From: an uncultured Caulobacterales bacterium
GTDB lineage: Bacteria; Pseudomonadota; Alphaproteobacteria; Caulobacterales; Caulobacteraceae
Direction of reading: 5' to 3'
DNA length: 43,577 nt
Assembly: GCA_903858685.1 (NCBI GenBank)
Contig: CAIOJR010000252.1
Span: 1-43,577 of the forward strand
The position numbers and the translations under genes are program-made. Of the stretch, positions 21,412-31,455 are shown piece by piece. Below the pieces are notes generated by a model. The model ran no database searches and was not told the origin of the DNA. It was given only the letters and a program-made list of their open reading frames with translations. The first letter of the stretch is position 1, and each line of letters opens with the position of its first letter.

Positions 21412-22137
21412 TCAGCGTGTCGTCAGATAGGTCTTCTGATTGACCGCATAGCTGAACTGCACGGGCACAAGGTCGCGGATGTACTGTTGCATGAACAGGC
21501 CCGCCTTGCTGATCCCCGAACGCGGCACGAAGATGATATCGAAACGGCGAAGAGGTATGGCGTCCGTATGGACGGGATCTCGCATCGCCCGACTGAGATC
21601 GAGCGTTCGCATCATGGCCGAGCCGTCGGGGCCGCGTCGAAGGATGACGACCCTGTCGGCATTGGCGCTGATCCGCAGGCCGCCCGCCATGAGCACCGCC
21701 TGAAGGGCGTTGATGTCGCCGGGCATGTCATAGACGCCCGGCTTGTCCACCTCGCCCCCGACAAAGACTTTCAAAGGCGTGGCTGAATGGATCGTCACCT
21801 CCACATCGGGGTGGACGAGAACCGCGCCATAGGCCGACGACACCGCCAGCTGAGCTTCCTGCGCCGTGCGGTCTGCGACCATGACCGGCGCCACCAGCGG
21901 AAGAGATATGCGGCCGTCCGGCTGCACTGTCACAGTTCGGTTCAGTTCGGGTGCGGACGCAGCGCTGATGTCGAGCGTGTCGCCCGGATAGAGCCGGTAG
22001 GCGGGCTCCATGTCCGTCCAGTTGGCGTAACCAATATTGGCGAAGCCGCCTTCCGTGGGACGCGGTTGGCTGGCGCAGCCGCTCAGGGCCAGCAGGGGAA
22101 CAGAGGCCAAGATCAGAAGATGTTGACGCCAGTTCAT
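21412..22137 (-). CDS. hfsD: Holdfast polysaccharide export lipoprotein HfsD (Wza/OPX family)
   Basis: HfsD is the outer-membrane polysaccharide export protein through which holdfast glycan leaves the cell. From ATG 22137 it has 241 residues; ATG 22152 (5 codons upstream) is also possible. A lipoprotein signal with lipobox LSGC (Cys21) is present. The Poly_export domain follows: YRLYPGDTLDISAASAPEL, then TVTVQPDGRISLPLVAPVMV. A SLBB-type domain comes next (KVFVGGEVDKPGVYDMPGD, then ALQAVLMAGGLR). The identification rests on this family plus the adjacent hfsABC genes. It is transcribed divergently from hfsA across about 125 bp. Confidence 0.88.
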   Translation of the reverse strand: MNWRQHLLILASVPLLALSGCASQPRPTEGGFANIGYANWTDMEPAYRLYPGDTLDISAASAPELNRTVTVQPDGRISLPLVAPVMVADRTAQEAQLAVSSAYGAVLVHPDVEVTIHSATPLKVFVGGEVDKPGVYDMPGDINALQAVLMAGGLRISANADRVVILRRGPDGSAMMRTLDLSRAMRDPVHTDAIPLRRFDIIFVPRSGISKAGLFMQQYIRDLVPVQFSYAVNQKTYLTTR

Positions 22138-22196
22138 GTGAAACACGCCCATCAGGTCGAAATGGTGAACAGTTGGTTTATTTTCACTGACAACGC

Positions 22197-22212
22197 GTAA
22201 CGATCGGTTAAC
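22197..22212 (+). promoter_or_regulatory. CtrA-like site between hfsD and hfsA
   Basis: GTAA-CGATCGG-TTAAC differs by one base from TTAA-N7-TTAAC. Its reverse complement, TTAA-CCGATCG-TTAC, also differs by one base. It is centred in the hfsD/hfsA divergent promoter region, where CtrA control of cell-cycle-timed surface genes would be plausible. This is a sequence match only. Confidence 0.4.
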
Positions 22213-22261
22213 GAGGGCCTGTGAGTTTGCCTGATCAGACCTAAGGAGATTCGGCCCCGTC

Positions 22262-23755
22262 ATGGCCAGCGGCGAGTGGAGTTCAGCAGTTCCTGCGTCG
22301 GGTCAATCCCAGACCTCGCGTCTGTCTCTGCTTGGCCCGGGCGAGGTGCTGGCCCATCTGCGCCGTCAGGCGCTGTTGATGGGCGCCATATTCGGGGCGT
22401 TTGTGCTGATCGGCCTGTTCGCTGCCCTCATGATCAAGCCGACCTATCAGGCCCATTCCAGTCTTCTGGTTCGCCTGGGTCAGGAATATGTCTATCAGCC
22501 GGGCGTGGGAGACGCCGCGCGCGGCGCGACGCCGGACAATGACCAGATCGTGCAGTCTGAACTGGAGATTCTGTCGAGTTCCGTGCTCAAGGATCGCGTG
22601 ATCCATGACATCGGCTACGGACGGATGTTTCCCAAGCAGGCTGGCGCCTATGCGCGGGCTGGCGAGCCGCAACGCCACAGGATGGAGGCCGCCGCCATCA
22701 AGAGCATCGAGTCTGGCTTGAAATTCGCCAGCGCCCCGGACACCTCGGTCGTGCGCCTGACCTATGTGAACTCAGACCCTGAAATGTCCGCCCTGGTGCT
22801 GAATACGCTGGTGGATGAATATCTGGTCTATCGCAGAAGCGTTCTGGCGGGCGGGCAGGGCGCGGCGGTTTTGGACCAGAAGCGGGCGCTGGAGCAGCGC
22901 CTGCACGCCGCAGATCAGGCCTATGACCAGTTTCTGGCGGACAACCATATCGGCGATATGGAGACGGAAAAGGCCTCCGTTGCGGCCAGCTATGGTCAGC
23001 TTGTGTCTGAAAGCTATGCGGTGCAGGCCCAGTTGGCGGAGGCCGTGGGCGGCGCCTCTGCTTCGGAGCGGCTTGCACGCGCTGCTCCGCCTGAAATCGG
23101 CCTCTATCACGATCTTGACCACACCGCGGCGGATCGCCTCAGCCAGTTGAAGCTGGAGCGCCAGGAAATGGCGTCGCGCTACCAACCCGGGGCCCAGCCC
23201 CTGCGCGACAAGGATGCGCAGATCGCTGCGCTGGAGGGACTGGCCGCGTCCGCCGGCAATGGCGCGGGCGGCAGTCGGCGCGTCGGCGTCAATCCGATCT
23301 GGCAGACCCTGCAAACGGAGCGGTTTCAGAATGAAGCGCGCGCGGCCTCGCTGCGCAGTCGCGCTGTCGCCATCACACGGGATCTGGAGGCGTTGACGGC
23401 CCGCCGTCAGAAACTGGCCGCTCTGGAGCCTCAATATCAGGCCCTGAGCCGCGACCGCGACATTCTCAGTAACAATGTTCGGGCTCTGGCGGCGCGGGCT
23501 GAGGAAATGTCATCCCAGCAGGCCCTGTCTGCGCGCGGCGCCGACAATATCCGGGTGGCGGAGCGCGCCTATGTTCCCGCCAGAGGCGTCAGTTTGAAGG
23601 CGCCTGTGCTGGCCCTGTGCATCTTCCTCGGCGGTGTCAGTGCAATCTCGGTCGGCCTGATCAGCCTTGTGCGCGGAAAGGCCTATCCGAGTCGGGAGGC
23701 TGTGGAGCGCGCTCTGGGTTTGCCGGTTCTGGCGGCTACGCCGGTTCAGGCCTGA
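22262..23755 (+). CDS. hfsA: Holdfast polysaccharide co-polymerase HfsA (Wzz/GumC family)
   Basis: HfsA spans the inner membrane with a large periplasmic coiled-coil region and sets glycan chain length while linking the polymerase to the HfsD exporter. The product is 497 residues. The first membrane segment is at about 36-57 (LLMGAIFGAFVLIGLFAALM). It is followed by the Wzz domain (KPTYQAHSSLLVRLGQEYVY), long helices (about 190-440) and a second membrane segment near 445-475 (APVLALCIFLGGVSAISVGL). A short cytoplasmic tail ends EAVERALGLPVLAATPVQA. AGGAG lies 13 nt upstream of ATG 22262. Its stop is in the same frame as hfsB. Confidence 0.92.
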   Translation: MASGEWSSAVPASGQSQTSRLSLLGPGEVLAHLRRQALLMGAIFGAFVLIGLFAALMIKPTYQAHSSLLVRLGQEYVYQPGVGDAARGATPDNDQIVQSELEILSSSVLKDRVIHDIGYGRMFPKQAGAYARAGEPQRHRMEAAAIKSIESGLKFASAPDTSVVRLTYVNSDPEMSALVLNTLVDEYLVYRRSVLAGGQGAAVLDQKRALEQRLHAADQAYDQFLADNHIGDMETEKASVAASYGQLVSESYAVQAQLAEAVGGASASERLARAAPPEIGLYHDLDHTAADRLSQLKLERQEMASRYQPGAQPLRDKDAQIAALEGLAASAGNGAGGSRRVGVNPIWQTLQTERFQNEARAASLRSRAVAITRDLEALTARRQKLAALEPQYQALSRDRDILSNNVRALAARAEEMSSQQALSARGADNIRVAERAYVPARGVSLKAPVLALCIFLGGVSAISVGLISLVRGKAYPSREAVERALGLPVLAATPVQA

Positions 23756-23821
23756 CGCCTCAGCGTTAAACGTGCGATCCTGAGCCCTGCATATGTGCGA
23801 GCGCGGATTGATTCGTTCCAG

Positions 23822-24511
23822 ATGGCTGACCTGTTGACCGAAATGGCTGAACTGGCGACACGGCTTGGCCCGCGTCCCGGAAGGCTGGGTCGCGCCGTAC
23901 AGTTTGTGGGCCTGCGCAACGGCGACGGCGTTTCGACGCTTGCGCGCGCCTTCGCCTGTGCGGTGGCGGAGACGTCGCGGCGTGGCGTTTGGCTGGTCGA
24001 GCTCGATCTGGCGGCCAATGCCCAATATGACGTGATCGACTCTGATCCCGAAATATATGGACGTCTCGGCGCCGCCGTGCGCGGAAGTCCTGACGGCTCC
24101 ACATTCTACCGTCTCGACCCTGCGCAACCGGAAGGCGCGCCGCCAGCCGCCGCCCTGTTGGCGGCCTATGGGGCGCAGGACCGCAATCTTTGGGTGACGC
24201 GCTTCATTGGCGAAGCGCTCAGGCCGGGCCAGACCGTGCAGGTGGTGGATGCAGAGCCCTATTGGCGGCAGATGAGGTCGCGTTTCGACTGGATCGTGGT
24301 GGATGCCCCGGCGGTGGAGCGCTCTGACGCTGCGCTTGTGACGGCGCGACGAATGGACGCCAATATTCTGGTGCTTGACGCCTCGCGCGGCGATATTGAC
24401 GCGGACGCCACCCTGCGCGACCTCGTGCGCAAGGTGGGCGGGCCGGTGACCGGCGCGGTCCTGAACCGCGCATCGCGCGCCTTGTGCGAACCCGTCAGGA
24501 AGCGGCGGTGA
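23822..24511 (+). CDS. hfsB: HfsB, CpsD/tyrosine-kinase-like ATPase domain protein with degenerate P-loop
   Basis: HfsB is the cytoplasmic partner of HfsA and resembles the bacterial tyrosine kinase (CpsD/ParA-type) fold. From ATG 23822 it has 229 residues; GTG 23795, nine codons upstream, is an alternative, and neither has a strong ribosome-binding site. The Walker A region reads GLRNGDGVSTLARAFA (30-45), with Val37 where kinases have Lys. The Walker A' strand is VWLVELDLAANAQYD and Walker B is DWIVVDAPAV (156-165). No C-terminal tyrosine cluster is present, the tail being RASRALCEPVRKRR. It is therefore probably a non-catalytic or atypical regulator. It follows hfsA in the same frame and overlaps hfsC. 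Confidence 0.85.
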   Translation: MADLLTEMAELATRLGPRPGRLGRAVQFVGLRNGDGVSTLARAFACAVAETSRRGVWLVELDLAANAQYDVIDSDPEIYGRLGAAVRGSPDGSTFYRLDPAQPEGAPPAAALLAAYGAQDRNLWVTRFIGEALRPGQTVQVVDAEPYWRQMRSRFDWIVVDAPAVERSDAALVTARRMDANILVLDASRGDIDADATLRDLVRKVGGPVTGAVLNRASRALCEPVRKRR

Positions 24512-25776
24512 GCTGGGGTCTGGCGGCCGGGGTTCGGCCACGGCCCGGCGTTTCCAGCACGGGCGCAGAGATTTCGGGCTTTGTCGCCTGCCTTCTGATC
24601 ACCCTGACCTTCACCCAGATGTGGCTCATGCCGCTGACGGGCCCCGAGGGAGACGCCGAGGCGTCGGCGATCATCCGCAGCCTCTATTTTCCGGCCTATG
24701 GCGTGACGCTGGGCCTGATCGTGCTGCACCTTAGGGAGGCGGCGAACGGCTTTGTCAGGACGCCGCTGATCTGGACGCTGATGGCATATATCTTTCTGTC
24801 CGTGCTGTGGTCGACCGATCCGTCCACCACGCAAAGGCGGGCCGTGGCGGTGCTCTTCACAACCCTTGGCGGGCTGGTGATTGGCGCGCGTTACGACTGG
24901 CTGGGAATTGCTCGGATTTTGGCGGCCACATCCGCGGTCACCGCCTTTTGCAGCCTTGTCCTGGCCGTTGCGGTCCCCAGCTACGGCGTCATGCACACCC
25001 TGTTTCCGGGCGCCTGGCGCGGCGTCTGGTATGAGAAAAATCTCCTGGGCGACCATATGGCTCAGGCGGTGATCTTCGCCCTTGCCGCGATGGCGCTGGA
25101 TGCGCGCTGGCGCAGGATCTGGGCCGGAGTCGCGCTCGTCTGCCTTGGGCTGGTGGTGATGTCGACGTCCAAGACCTCGCTCGTGACCCTGATCATGGGG
25201 CTGGGCGCCATGGGCTTTGTCTGGGTCGTTCGTCGCGGACCGGTGGCGGCCATTGCCGGAAGCTGGGCGGCGCTATGCGGCCTGGCCTTGCTGGGCGGGA
25301 CAGTGTGGTTCGCGTCAGACGCCCTTTTCGCCTTGTTGGGCAAGGACGCCACCCTGACCGGCCGCACCCAGATCTGGACGGCCCTGACGCGACAGGTCCA
25401 GACACGGCCCTGGACTGGCTTTGGCTATGCGGCGGTGTGGGACGACAAATCAGTCTGGTCGCCCATGGCCTGGATTTCCAAGGATGCGGGCTTTGTCGCA
25501 CACCATGCCCATAATAGCTGGCTGGAGGCGTGGCTGGGACTGGGCTATGGCGGGCTGGCGCTCTGGGCGGCTATTTTCGCCTTCACCTGGATGCGCGGCG
25601 TCCATAGCGCCTATGTCGGCCGAGGCGGCATTCTGGTCCTGCCATTCCTGATGGTCTTCGGCCTCACGACCCTGACCGAGAGCGTGGCTTTTGTGTACAA
25701 TGATTATGTGTGGGTGGTCTTTACCATGATCGCCGTGCGGTTGGCCTTGGGAGAGAGGCCCGCCGCCACGGCTTAG
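24508..25776 (+). CDS. hfsC: Holdfast polysaccharide polymerase HfsC (Wzy/O-antigen ligase family)
   Basis: A 422-residue multi-pass inner-membrane protein that joins lipid-linked repeat units in the periplasm. Start GTG 24508 overlaps the hfsB stop as GTGA, with AGGA 7 nt upstream; an in-frame GTG at 24484 is less likely. About ten hydrophobic segments are visible. The Wzy_C hallmark is the large periplasmic loop with LGKDATLTGRTQIWTALTRQ, then TGFGYAAVWDD and HHAHNSWLEAWLGLGYGGLA. In Caulobacter HfsC and HfsI are two polymerases, so a second copy may exist elsewhere. It converges on the glycosyltransferase gene, with overlapping stop codons. Confidence 0.88.
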   Translation: MSWGLAAGVRPRPGVSSTGAEISGFVACLLITLTFTQMWLMPLTGPEGDAEASAIIRSLYFPAYGVTLGLIVLHLREAANGFVRTPLIWTLMAYIFLSVLWSTDPSTTQRRAVAVLFTTLGGLVIGARYDWLGIARILAATSAVTAFCSLVLAVAVPSYGVMHTLFPGAWRGVWYEKNLLGDHMAQAVIFALAAMALDARWRRIWAGVALVCLGLVVMSTSKTSLVTLIMGLGAMGFVWVVRRGPVAAIAGSWAALCGLALLGGTVWFASDALFALLGKDATLTGRTQIWTALTRQVQTRPWTGFGYAAVWDDKSVWSPMAWISKDAGFVAHHAHNSWLEAWLGLGYGGLALWAAIFAFTWMRGVHSAYVGRGGILVLPFLMVFGLTTLTESVAFVYNDYVWVVFTMIAVRLALGERPAATA

Positions 25777-27457: not shown

Positions 27458-28392
27458 CCTCTGGCCTCGGCATAGAGGGCGGCGCGGTAGAGCTTGGCGC
27501 ACAGCACGCGCAACGATAGGGGCGCAGCGGACAGGGCCACGGCCTTGAGCCAGGGACGCCAGATCGCGCGCGCCGGCAGGCGGCGAAACAGCCGTGACAC
27601 CCGATAGCTGGGATAGTCTCGCACGACCTGCGGATGCTTTTGAAGAATCCGGGCGAAGTTGACGCCGGACTGCTCGTATTTGGCCAGAAGCGCGGGCGCA
27701 GCGTCCAGCCCCATATGGGTGGCGGTGTTGTCCAGATGGGTGACCCCCCACCTTTGGGCGACCCGCATGCCCCATTCCACATCTTCCCAACCCCAGCCCG
27801 TGAAACCTTCGTCGAAGGGCTCGCCCGCCAGCGCGGACCTGTGGACGAGGAGATTGGACGTGTAGACATATTTTTCGGGCGCCCGTCGCCGCATCTGCGC
27901 ATTGATGCATTCGCCCCGGATTTGCAGCGCGTAATGCAGTTGTTGATCGTCTTTGGGCCTGATCTGGTTGAGCGAAAAGCCGCCAAAGGCCGCGACGGGA
28001 CGCTCGGCTTCAAGCAGATCAAGCCAGATGCGCAGGAAGTCCGGGCTGTCCGGCGCCATGTCGCAATCCAGAAACAGGCCGTAGTCGCATCGCGCATGAG
28101 AAAACAGGAGGTTGCGCCCACGCGCCCGTCCCTGATTGGCGCTCAGGACCACCAGGCGGGCCGGCATGGCGCTTTGTGCAAGACAAGCCTGCACGCGGGC
28201 GTTCAGCGCGGCGTCGCCGCCGCCGTCATCCAGCAGAACCAGCTCCACCGCGCCGTTCAGATCTGCGGCCTCTCTGGCCAGAAGCTCGATCAGCGGACAG
28301 GGGTCATAATGGTAGTAGGGCGTCAGCACCGACAGGCGTGGCCTGGCGCCCGGGTGCGCCAGATTGTCAAAGACGCTTTCAGTTGTGGTCAA
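27454..28392 (-). CDS. hfsG: Holdfast glycosyltransferase HfsG (family 2)
   Basis: A 312-residue GT-A glycosyltransferase that extends the lipid-linked holdfast oligosaccharide. The start chosen is TTG 28392, because it overlaps the hfsF stop as TTGA and GGAG lies about 10 nt upstream; the open frame continues into hfsF but is not family-like. Seen are RLSVLTPYYHYDPCPLIELL, VELVLLDDGGGD, NQGRARGRNLLFSHARCDYG and DCDM. A GT27-type WGWEDVEWGMRVAQ motif is present. The C-terminus is basic and partly hydrophobic. It sits between flippase and deacetylase genes as in the Caulobacter hfsEFGH order. Confidence 0.88.
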   Translation of the reverse strand: MTTTESVFDNLAHPGARPRLSVLTPYYHYDPCPLIELLAREAADLNGAVELVLLDDGGGDAALNARVQACLAQSAMPARLVVLSANQGRARGRNLLFSHARCDYGLFLDCDMAPDSPDFLRIWLDLLEAERPVAAFGGFSLNQIRPKDDQQLHYALQIRGECINAQMRRRAPEKYVYTSNLLVHRSALAGEPFDEGFTGWGWEDVEWGMRVAQRWGVTHLDNTATHMGLDAAPALLAKYEQSGVNFARILQKHPQVVRDYPSYRVSRLFRRLPARAIWRPWLKAVALSAAPLSLRVLCAKLYRAALYAEARG

Positions 28393-29837
28393 AGGCCAAA
28401 CTCCAGTCGCTCGCGCCGGATCAGTCGGCCCAGTTGAAGGCGCAGGCCGCCCGTGTTCATGGCAAGGCTGACGCCGCCATAGACGAGTGCGCCGATGAGG
28501 CTCTTTGCGCCCAGTTCGACAATGCCGCCGATCGCTGGAACCCGCGACACGGCCAGCCCCATCAGCACCGTCGCGGCTCCCGCTCTCGCCAGCGTGCCCC
28601 AGGGTATCGGCAGGGCGATGCAGGTCCTGCCCAGAATGATCGAGGTGCACATGCCGATGAAATAGGCCGCTGTTGTCGCCCACATTGCGCCCGGCAATCC
28701 AAAGCGCGGGACGAGCGTCAGGACCAGGGCCAGATTGAGCAGGGCCGGGATCGCCATCGCCGCCAGCAGACGCGTTGTACGCCGCGACAGGGTGAAGGCA
28801 GAGTGGAAGTAGTAGGTGGTCAGGCCTGAAAAGACGGCGCTGGCGGCGATCCAGACCGTGACGGCGGCGGCCTCTTTAGATAGCGACGGTCCCACCATCA
28901 CCTGGGCCAGTGGCTTGGCCACCAGCGCCAGTCCAGCGGCCGCGGGCAGGGCGAGGGCCACCATGAAGGCGCTTTGTGCAGCGGCCACGCGCTTGAGCTC
29001 CGCCTCGCCGCCGCGCTCAAAGGCCGCGATGGCGGCAGGACCGCCCGCCATGCCCAGCCAGATGAACATGACGTCCAGCGTGCGATTGGCCAGACTATAG
29101 CCCGCATGATAGGCGCCCACGGCGCCTTCGCCCATGACGGCTGCGATGACGAAGCGGTCGGTGGTGGCGATGGCCAGGCTCATCACCAGGGACAGGGTGA
29201 CGGGCAGGCCATAGGCGGCGTACCGCCTGAGGCGCGCCTTGTCGAAACGTCCACTGGCGGCGGTGCGAAGTTCGCCGGGCAGGGCGTAGATCAGGCATAG
29301 CGCGCTCGCGGCGCCTGCGCCCGCCAGGGGCGCTGCTCCGCCCAGCCCGACCAGGATCAGCACGATCCCGATGAGAAACGCGCCTCCGGTCTGGGCCATG
29401 TCGAAAACCGCGAAACCCGCCACCTGACCTGCTGCACGTCTGCGCTCCTGGGCCATGCGCAACAGGCTGCGCACCACCGTGGATGCAAGACCAGCGCCGA
29501 TGGCGAGCTTGAGCCCCGGGGACACGTTCAGCGACATCACCACAATGGCGGTGATGAGCGGCGCCAGCACAGCCATGGTGGCGAAGGCGCCATAGAGGGT
29601 GGCAAACAGAGACTTGCGCGCCTCGTCTCCCTGTTCCGCAGCATAGAAGCGCGCCATGGCGGCTTCGATCCAGGTGAACAGACAGGTCGAGGCCAGACTG
29701 GCGACGGAAAAGCCCAGCGCATAGTCGCCATACTGGGCAGGCGTCAGAAGCCGGGTGAATACGATAATGGTTCCAAAGCCAGCCAGGGCCTGGACGATGT
29801 TGACCGGCAGATAGCCCAGGACCCCGCGCCAGAACAT
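28389..29837 (-). CDS. hfsF: Holdfast polysaccharide flippase HfsF (Wzx family)
   Basis: A 482-residue MOP-superfamily membrane protein that moves the undecaprenyl-linked repeat unit across the inner membrane. Start ATG 29837 lies 1 nt after the hfsE stop. The N-terminus MFWRGVLGYLPVNIVQALAG is typical for Wzx-type proteins. About 12-14 hydrophobic segments follow in regular spacing, with short charged loops (for example LLTPAQYGDYALGF and SGRFDKARLRRYAAYGLPVT). There is no catalytic motif to check. Identity rests on the topology and the position between the initiating transferase and HfsG. Confidence 0.88.
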   Translation of the reverse strand: MFWRGVLGYLPVNIVQALAGFGTIIVFTRLLTPAQYGDYALGFSVASLASTCLFTWIEAAMARFYAAEQGDEARKSLFATLYGAFATMAVLAPLITAIVVMSLNVSPGLKLAIGAGLASTVVRSLLRMAQERRRAAGQVAGFAVFDMAQTGGAFLIGIVLILVGLGGAAPLAGAGAASALCLIYALPGELRTAASGRFDKARLRRYAAYGLPVTLSLVMSLAIATTDRFVIAAVMGEGAVGAYHAGYSLANRTLDVMFIWLGMAGGPAAIAAFERGGEAELKRVAAAQSAFMVALALPAAAGLALVAKPLAQVMVGPSLSKEAAAVTVWIAASAVFSGLTTYYFHSAFTLSRRTTRLLAAMAIPALLNLALVLTLVPRFGLPGAMWATTAAYFIGMCTSIILGRTCIALPIPWGTLARAGAATVLMGLAVSRVPAIGGIVELGAKSLIGALVYGGVSLAMNTGGLRLQLGRLIRRERLEFGL

Positions 29838-29838
29838 C

Positions 29839-31362
29839 TCAGCGCACCGCGGCTTTGTCGCCCAGCAGACGGGGCAGGGTGATCGCCAGGATGTAGACAT
29901 CAAACCAGAGCGACTGGCGCTCGATATATTCCACGTCCAACCTCACGCGTTCCCGCACCTGTTCGGGCGTATCGACCGGCCCGCGGCTGCCATTGACCTG
30001 AGCCCAGCCGGTGATGCCGGGCTTCATGCGATGGCGCCACGCATATTCGTCGACCAGTCGTGCGCTTTCGCGGTCGCCGGAGCGCATGCCGATGGCGTGG
30101 GGTCTTGGACCGACCAGCGACATTTCGCCCGTCAGAACGTTGAACAACTGTGGCAACTCATCAAGGCTGGTCCTGCGGATGAAGCGGCCGACGCGCGTGA
30201 CGCGGTTGTCATTGGCCTGCACCTGCTGGCGCGCCTGGGCGTCTGCGGTTTCATGGCGCATGGAGCGAAACTTCAGAACCATGATCTGCTCATTGTTAAA
30301 GCCGTGGCGACGCTGGCGAAACAGGATCGGACCGGGGCTGTCCAGTCGGATGGCGACCGCGATGGCGAGCAGGATGGGCGCCGCCGCCACCAGTCCGAGG
30401 GCTGACAAGACAAGGTCGGCAAGCCGCTTCACGACGGCGCCGGGCGCATCCAGGTCTGGCCCGACCTGTTCCGTCAACGGGGTGTCGGACAGGCGCTGAA
30501 TCGTCGACTGGGTCGTCGCCTCTCCATCATCGACAAACAGGGTGACGGGATTGGGCAGAAGGCGAAGCTCTTCCAGCAATTGACCGATCCGCACCTTGGC
30601 GTGTGGCGGAACCGCCAGCACAATCCGGTCGACAAAGGGCAGTATGGGATGATGTGACAGATCGCGCGGCGCGCCAAGAACGGGAACGCCTTCGATCCGG
30701 TCCGGAATGCGCGCCGCCCGGTCGTCGAAAATCCCCAGAATATTGACGTGGCGTGCGGCCAGAGCCTGCTGGATCAAGGACGCAGCGCTTGGAGTCGCCC
30801 CCACAATGACAAGGTTGGGCGTCATTCTGCCATCCGCCCGTGCGCGCGAGATCCAGTTCAGAGCGCCGAGATGGGTTGCAAACAGGGCCAGGGACGCGCC
30901 TGCAACCCACATGCCGAAGGAGGACGGCAGGTCGCCGTTGAGAAACAGGCTGACGGCGCCGCTCGCGATTGCGCCTATGCCCGCCGCCGCTGCAATACGG
31001 CCCAGATGCATGACGACCTGTTCGCGGAGGCGAAAGCCATAGGCGTGGACATGCTCCAGCGCCCAGATTGTTCCTGCTGCACCGGCCAGCGCCGGCGCCG
31101 TGACGGTGGCTGCGTCCGCATCATGGACCAGCTGGTGGTGCAAGAACATCATCACCATGGCCGCGATCAACAGCGCCGCCCGATCAATAGAGCGCAGCGT
31201 TCTGACGATCGTGGCGCCTGACAGCCTATCCCGACTTGGGCTCAACAGGTCAGGTCGTAGCGGGCCGCGCTGGACCACGCCCTCGGACCTGCCCGCACAG
31301 CACGCGGCGCCATCCGGGACCCGGGAGGCTCTTTTGTCGAAATGGGAGGGCAATTGAACCAT
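29839..31362 (-). CDS. hfsE: Holdfast initiating sugar-phosphate transferase HfsE (PHPT/WbaP family)
   Basis: HfsE transfers a sugar-1-phosphate to undecaprenyl phosphate, starting repeat-unit synthesis at the inner membrane. From ATG 31362 it has 507 residues, with GAGAG just upstream; a TTG four codons earlier is ignored. It has four N-terminal membrane segments (about 60-170). A soluble CoA-binding-like domain follows (NLVIVGATPSAASLIQQALA, then GIFDDRAARIPDRIEGVPV). The C-terminal transferase domain is entered by a re-entrant helix (ADLVLSALGLVAAAPILLAI) and has RLDSPGPILFRQRRHG, MVLKFRSMR, TSLDELPQLFNVLTGEMSLV and PGITGWAQVNGSRG. It is the first gene of hfsEFGH-GT. Confidence 0.92.
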   Translation of the reverse strand: MVQLPSHFDKRASRVPDGAACCAGRSEGVVQRGPLRPDLLSPSRDRLSGATIVRTLRSIDRAALLIAAMVMMFLHHQLVHDADAATVTAPALAGAAGTIWALEHVHAYGFRLREQVVMHLGRIAAAAGIGAIASGAVSLFLNGDLPSSFGMWVAGASLALFATHLGALNWISRARADGRMTPNLVIVGATPSAASLIQQALAARHVNILGIFDDRAARIPDRIEGVPVLGAPRDLSHHPILPFVDRIVLAVPPHAKVRIGQLLEELRLLPNPVTLFVDDGEATTQSTIQRLSDTPLTEQVGPDLDAPGAVVKRLADLVLSALGLVAAAPILLAIAVAIRLDSPGPILFRQRRHGFNNEQIMVLKFRSMRHETADAQARQQVQANDNRVTRVGRFIRRTSLDELPQLFNVLTGEMSLVGPRPHAIGMRSGDRESARLVDEYAWRHRMKPGITGWAQVNGSRGPVDTPEQVRERVRLDVEYIERQSLWFDVYILAITLPRLLGDKAAVR

Positions 31363-31455
31363 CAACTCTCTCAACTTGGCCCGATGTCTAGTTCATCACG
31401 CCTGAAATCGCGTTAACGTATCGCGTGGCTTGAATGTCTTTGGGGAAAACCGCCC

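Follow-up and report, generated by a model that had tools for sequence, protein, structure and literature searches.

HfsB of an uncultured Caulobacterales bacterium, a probable tyrosine pseudokinase that may act on HfsA without phosphorylation

The hfsA-hfsB pair and its neighbourhood

The DNA analyzed here (the window) is a stretch of 43,577 nucleotides, which constitutes one whole contig of the 3.9 Mb genome of an uncultured Caulobacterales bacterium assembled in 279 contigs. The genes around hfsB are the following:

21412-22263, minus strand: hfsD, outer-membrane polysaccharide export (OPX) protein, divergent from hfsA (Poly_export 3.2e-19, SLBB 3.6e-10).
22262-23755, plus strand: hfsA, PCP-2 (Wzz-like) polysaccharide co-polymerase without BY-kinase domain, 497 amino acids (TIGR03007 9.6e-23 and Wzz 2.8e-5, both matches under the curated cut-offs).
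23822-24511, plus strand: hfsB, stand-alone BY-kinase-like domain and putative BY pseudokinase, 229 amino acids (open reading frame with translation, AlphaFold2 model, structural comparison).
24484-25776, plus strand: Wzy/O-antigen-ligase-like polymerase, hfsC-like (Wzy_C 1.4e-11).
28389-29903, minus strand: Wzx-type flippase, hfsF-like (Polysacc_synt_3 2e-14).
29839-31374, minus strand: initiating sugar transferase, hfsE-like (Bac_transf 8.5e-64).

Further along, the cluster holds two glycosyltransferases and a polysaccharide deacetylase, then the flippase and the initiating sugar transferase, and it is of the Wzx/Wzy type of the holdfast kind. The hfs names are given by analogy with Caulobacter.

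The reading frame of hfsB runs from the ATG at 23822 to the TGA at 24509-24511. An in-frame GTG lies nine codons 5' of this start, at 23795, but homology begins from the ATG and residue 1 is a methionine in 48 of the 60 relatives described below. Upstream, hfsA stops 66 nucleotides before hfsB and is read in the same frame. Downstream, the Wzy_C gene as called starts within the 3' end of hfsB (overlap 24484-24511), and it may begin later. An open frame of 343 codons also passes through hfsB on the opposite strand (23510-24541, minus strand), which in GC-rich DNA is by itself no evidence of a gene.

Matches to HfsB were obtained in 66 of 100 related genomes, from which 60 open reading frames were kept, one per genome; the six genomes dropped (G006, G009, G027, G038, G075 and G085) gave a partial match only, inside a longer frame. 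Among the 60 loci, L037 is truncated at the end of its contig, L002 begins close to a contig end, and the match in the genome of L059 contains one internal TGA. N-terminal extensions in L010, L012, L024 and L030 come from start-codon assignment and leave the motif columns unaffected, but they make the hfsA-hfsB gaps unreliable for these rows. HfsA adjoins HfsB in 58 of the 60 loci, the two others being L002, at the contig end, and L045, where none was found. Long open frames in L009 and L020 were considered as natural HfsA-HfsB fusions and rejected, as the stop of HfsA itself precedes hfsB in both; in L009, the open frame that precedes hfsB does not resemble HfsA.

The P-loop, the tyrosines and the kinases encoded elsewhere

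The original prediction held that the P-loop of HfsB reads GDGVST and lacks the Walker A lysine, that the protein has no C-terminal tyrosine cluster and that a tyrosine kinase mechanism is therefore unlikely. The motifs concerned are located as follows:

23921-23938, plus strand: degenerate Walker A GDGVST, residues 34-39, codons GGC GAC GGC GTT TCG ACG (translation; weak profile-alignment stretch onto CapB K55).
23987-24016, plus strand: Walker A'-like strand VWLVELDLAA with E60 and D62 (alignment of relatives).
24287-24310, plus strand: Walker B-like strand DWIVVDAP with D161 and P163 (alignment of relatives).

Since codons 34-39 read GDGVST, the position of the Walker A lysine is that of V37 (codon GTT, 23930-23932). 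Aligning the 60 HfsB-like proteins showed that this position is occupied by Thr (30), Val (14), Ala (8), Ile (3), Ser (2), Cys (2) or Gly (1), and by Lys in none of them. In a second set, made up of the 80 best among 234 loci, the same residue was V39 T32 A9, counts that carry no independent weight because the search pattern fitting all 80 itself excludes Lys. The original prediction named a conserved lysine at another site (deviant Walker A) as a refuting case; this was looked for and rejected: HfsB has two lysines only, at residues 204 and 227, and no alignment column holds Lys in more than 20 of the 60 rows. Its tyrosines are likewise few (residues 69, 79, 96, 116 and 147), so that none is present in the last 82 of the 229 residues; among the relatives (59 rows, L037 being left out) the last 30 residues contain no Tyr in 47, one in 11 and two in 1. 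All these claims of the original prediction thus stand, the improbability of a tyrosine kinase mechanism being well supported.

As a control, we took the 12 best-scoring BY-kinase places above the TIGR01007 cut-off in the same 100 genomes, 44 of which have a match over this cut-off. The Walker A lysine is present in 12 of 12, a control that leans towards Lys because its members were selected for their score against a model built on active kinases, and 11 of the 12 C-termini present 4 to 9 tyrosines in their last 32 residues, L080 having one. An unrooted tree was built from 24 of the 60 HfsB, the 12 BY-kinases and 5 domains of fused PCP-2a proteins (L176, a candidate fused PCP-2a, gave no match). 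In this tree, HfsB forms one side of a branch with a support of 100/99, L058 and L060 being the most divergent, long-branched rows; the simplest reading, for a tree without a root, would be that loss of the lysine preceded the spread of HfsB through the order. The lysine is kept in L173 and L174, two related proteins of the fused PCP-2a type whose glycines are degenerate (EAEDKSD and DRGAKSA); this may be a different route to a degenerate kinase domain.

The remainder of the P-loop and of the Walker motifs is conserved, with G36 in 59, S38 in 57, D62 in 56 and both D161 and P163 in all 60 of the HfsB-like proteins; position 60 is Asp in 50, Glu in 9 and Ser in 1, the Glu of the HfsB studied here belonging to the minority. 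These residues bear on the proposal that HfsB is a nucleotide-sensing scaffold, whose lysine-free P-loop would bind ATP or ADP and alter its grip on HfsA. In a pure scaffold, G34, G36, S38 and D161 need not have been kept, residue 37 is confined to seven residue types (T, V, A, I, S, C, G) in 60/60, and basic residues are conserved elsewhere (column 54, K/R in 59/60; column 152, K/R in 56/60; R127 in 54/60). However, the kept glycine, serine and aspartate may merely hold the loop and the sheet, and loss of the P-loop lysine usually abolishes nucleotide binding. TadZ may be a case of a lysine-free nucleotide binder. Weighing these points, we consider nucleotide sensing unlikely, and slightly less likely still the more specific idea that the lysine-free P-loop is kept because HfsB binds nucleotide and non-catalytically switches its hold on the HfsA tail, a property that would be conserved across Caulobacterales.

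Another possibility is that an active BY-kinase is encoded at a different place in the genome, with HfsB as its substrate or regulatory subunit. Among the 60 genomes with HfsB, 31 have a BY-kinase over the cut-off, which could act in trans and counts against the scaffold reading, and 7 more have a match of 80-108 bits; moreover, the interplay of inactive and active BY-kinases is discussed for CapB1/CapB2 in the sections of PMC3795738 used here. The 22 other genomes have no match of at least 80 bits, which argues that HfsB-bearing genomes do not generally have an active kinase in trans, and HfsB itself has no tyrosine tail to offer. A profile search of the contigs of its own genome gave no TIGR01007 match over the cut-off; the best match (46.2 bits) is a 734-aa fused PCP-2a on contig C11 (L061:862-3063, minus strand), which reads NPDEGVTT. 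This protein, too, looks like a pseudokinase, with a Val at the position of the Walker A lysine and one Tyr in its last 32 residues. Its relatives L162 and L175 read GVGVTS and GEGVSS, respectively; their tails end in an IPxxxYxxL motif. The other own-genome matches that were judged (L063, L065 and L068) are ParA-like with normal P-loops. It seems, then, from these searches, in which some genomes are drafts, that HfsB generally needs no BY-kinase in trans, and we regard a role as substrate or regulatory subunit as very unlikely.

For comparison, 27 of the 40 genomes without HfsB have a TIGR01007 match of at least 80 bits. Within the genus, four of the five other genomes searched (G001-G004) give no HfsB match and have TIGR01007 matches of 87 to 118 bits; HfsB is present in the genome studied here (G000) and in G005, and neither has a TIGR01007 match of that size.

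Predicted fold of HfsB and the tail of HfsA

At the level of family profiles, HfsB matches TIGR01007 with 29.8 bits, below the curated cut-off of 108.05, and gives weak matches to MinD and ParA families. A profile of 40 HfsB sequences matched CapAB with an E-value of 3.1e-14, which comes from the C-terminal part; the P-loop aligns in a weak segment of its own (i-Evalue 0.05), which sets HfsB residue 37 on CapB K55, a Met in the solved K55M mutant. The AlphaFold2 model calculated from 40 sequences has a pLDDT of 92.7 and a pTM of 0.89. Foldseek lent modest support to a BY-kinase fold for this model: rows 1-6 are CapAB and Wzc chains (best E 6.3e-6, TM 0.61, rmsd 6.0), and the ParA-like McdA appears at rows 7 and 8. 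In a second structural comparison, the first 19 of 50 rows are all BY-kinases, with Z from 15.3 to 19.0 (VpsO 19.0, CapA1B1 18.1, Etk 18.1, Wzc 18.0), and MinD, ParA and others come next, from 13.3 down. The predicted fold of HfsB is that of a BY-kinase domain.

These comparisons also bear on whether HfsB could be a positioning ATPase of the ParA/MinD type, responsible for the polar location of the holdfast machine. Membership of the same superfamily, the weak family matches and the ParA-like chains among the top Foldseek rows are in keeping with this, but BY-kinases rank above in the second comparison (Z of 19.0 versus 13.3) and the signature lysines are absent. The deviant Walker A of ParA and MinD, with its signature lysine, is KGGxxGK[ST]; HfsB, reading LRNGDGVST, does not match it, and the three ParA-like loci of its own genome (L063, L065 and L068) do. 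A positioning ATPase therefore appears extremely improbable.

Turning to the partner, the HfsA stretch of interest is the following:

23693-23737, plus strand: C-terminal tail of HfsA, residues 478-492, a helix then a strand with LPVLA; the domain of HfsB is predicted to be completed by it, like that of CapB by the tail of CapA (read-through model).

For this model, the end of HfsA and HfsB were treated as one covalent chain, the hfsA stop being read as Ser. The chain was predicted with a pLDDT of 90.6, with residues 478-485 of HfsA in a helix and 489-492 in a strand (block mean pLDDT of 90 and 97), and with linker blocks at 65-66. Adding the tail raised the match to CapA1B1 from a Z of 18.1 (180 residues aligned, rmsd 2.9) to 21.6 (214 aligned, rmsd 3.1), the alignment now beginning from CapA residue 197, and the match to Wzc (3la6) from 18.0 to 21.4. 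There was no gain for VpsO (19.0 to 18.7), where the aligned range starts after the tail part. With the tail, the best BY-kinase reaches 21.6, against 13.0 for the best MinD/ParA row. Because contact is favoured in a read-through chain and Z rises with the length of the alignment, docking of the tail is supported rather than proven by these numbers; the gain in Z together with the alignment of the tail to CapA nevertheless indicates that the first helix and strand of the modelled domain most likely come from HfsA, as they do from CapA in the known pair.

An LPVLA-like motif, sought with a fixed pattern, is present in 56 of 58 HfsA tails, and the two misses (L057 and L060) retain VLA. In L054, L056, L059 and L060, the tail stretch is divergent and proline-rich, followed by a PVLA strand near the end. 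The N-terminal helix of HfsB (residues 2-15) reads ADLLTEMAELATRL and does not contain the E-x2-R-x2-R interface motif, as named in the part of PMC3795738 drawn on here, so that a Wzc-like ring is without sequence support for HfsB.

A scaffold for HfsA and its place among known systems

We conclude, with a probability of roughly 0.8, that HfsB is a bacterial tyrosine pseudokinase which serves as a phosphorylation-independent scaffold on HfsA. The losses in sequence, their conservation and the pairing of the two genes are observed, and the fold and the contact with the tail are predicted by modelling. According to this proposal, HfsB would be a BY-kinase domain with a gene of its own, separate from that of the membrane partner, and very probably unable to phosphorylate tyrosine; its role would be that of a structural partner to HfsA, the PCP-2 protein, in a Wzx/Wzy-type pathway for the adhesive holdfast. 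The cytoplasmic C-terminal tail of HfsA, with its helix and LPVLA strand, would dock on HfsB and complete the domain as in CapA-CapB; binding of HfsB would then stabilize HfsA and aid its assembly or opening without phosphorylation cycles. We infer that cycles of assembly may be driven by binding alone and that HfsB may in this manner gate HfsA. The original prediction had offered a scaffold that gates HfsA without phosphorylation, beside a nucleotide sensor; the scaffold is supported by the BY-kinase fold of the model, by the presence of HfsA next to HfsB in 58/60 loci and by the docking of the HfsA tail as modelled.

Models of capsule and exopolysaccharide export by PCP-2 proteins rest on cycles of tyrosine phosphorylation, as described in the excerpted text of PMC12004946. 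A holdfast lineage with Lys in 0/60 fits the published view that a PCP-2 machine can run without phosphorylation chemistry, as do the 22/60 HfsB found in genomes without a BY-kinase match of at least 80 bits. The idea of a pseudokinase scaffold is itself already published, and our counts firm it up for this order; what is added are the order-wide counts, the HfsB of this genome and a genome of its own without a detected BY-kinase over the cut-off. A count of the missing lysine across the order was not found in the literature searched and would be a small addition.

The closest known case is that of C. crescentus. In the portion of PMC12004946 consulted, which cites Javens 2013 and Cuthbertson 2009, its HfsB is classed as a BY pseudokinase that stands alone, and a model shows it together with the 27 C-terminal residues of HfsA; HfsB matters for the stability of HfsA, both proteins are required for the holdfast, and a role as phosphorylation-independent scaffold of HfsA is proposed there for HfsB. 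Among our loci, that of Caulobacter vibrioides T5M6 (L158) encodes a protein 41% identical to the HfsB studied here, which reads GEGTST and is also without the lysine, with an HfsA-like frame upstream that ends LPVLATAGVKRAA; judged by similarity and gene order, not by annotation, it would be the published hfsB. The two proteins differ at residue 37 (Val here, Thr in Caulobacter vibrioides) and in their C-termini (ALCEPVRKRR here versus TPPNFLRAILP).

EcpK from Myxococcus xanthus, which works with EpsV, resembles HfsB in being a BY pseudokinase that stands alone and serves a PCP-2 protein devoid of kinase domain; it too has no tyrosine tail and has the tail of its partner modelled in a groove. 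By its description in the same portion of PMC12004946, however, EcpK has no Walker motifs, whereas HfsB retains G34, G36, S38 and the Walker B aspartate. A Sphingomonas pathway that combines a BY-kinase with another ATPase (PMC11340318) was considered for comparison and set aside. In Staphylococcus aureus, CapB is a separate kinase domain completed by the tail of its partner CapA, as predicted for HfsB and HfsA, and this pair is the top structural match of the model with the HfsA tail (Z of 21.6); CapB has the lysine K55 and a tyrosine cluster, as given in the sections of PMC3795738 used here, whereas HfsB has V37 and no cluster. Finally, Wzc from Escherichia coli shares the fold of the HfsB model (Z of 18.0, and 21.4 with the tail) but, unlike HfsB, it is fused to its membrane part and is an active kinase with a tyrosine-rich tail, as stated in the excerpted text of PMC12004946.
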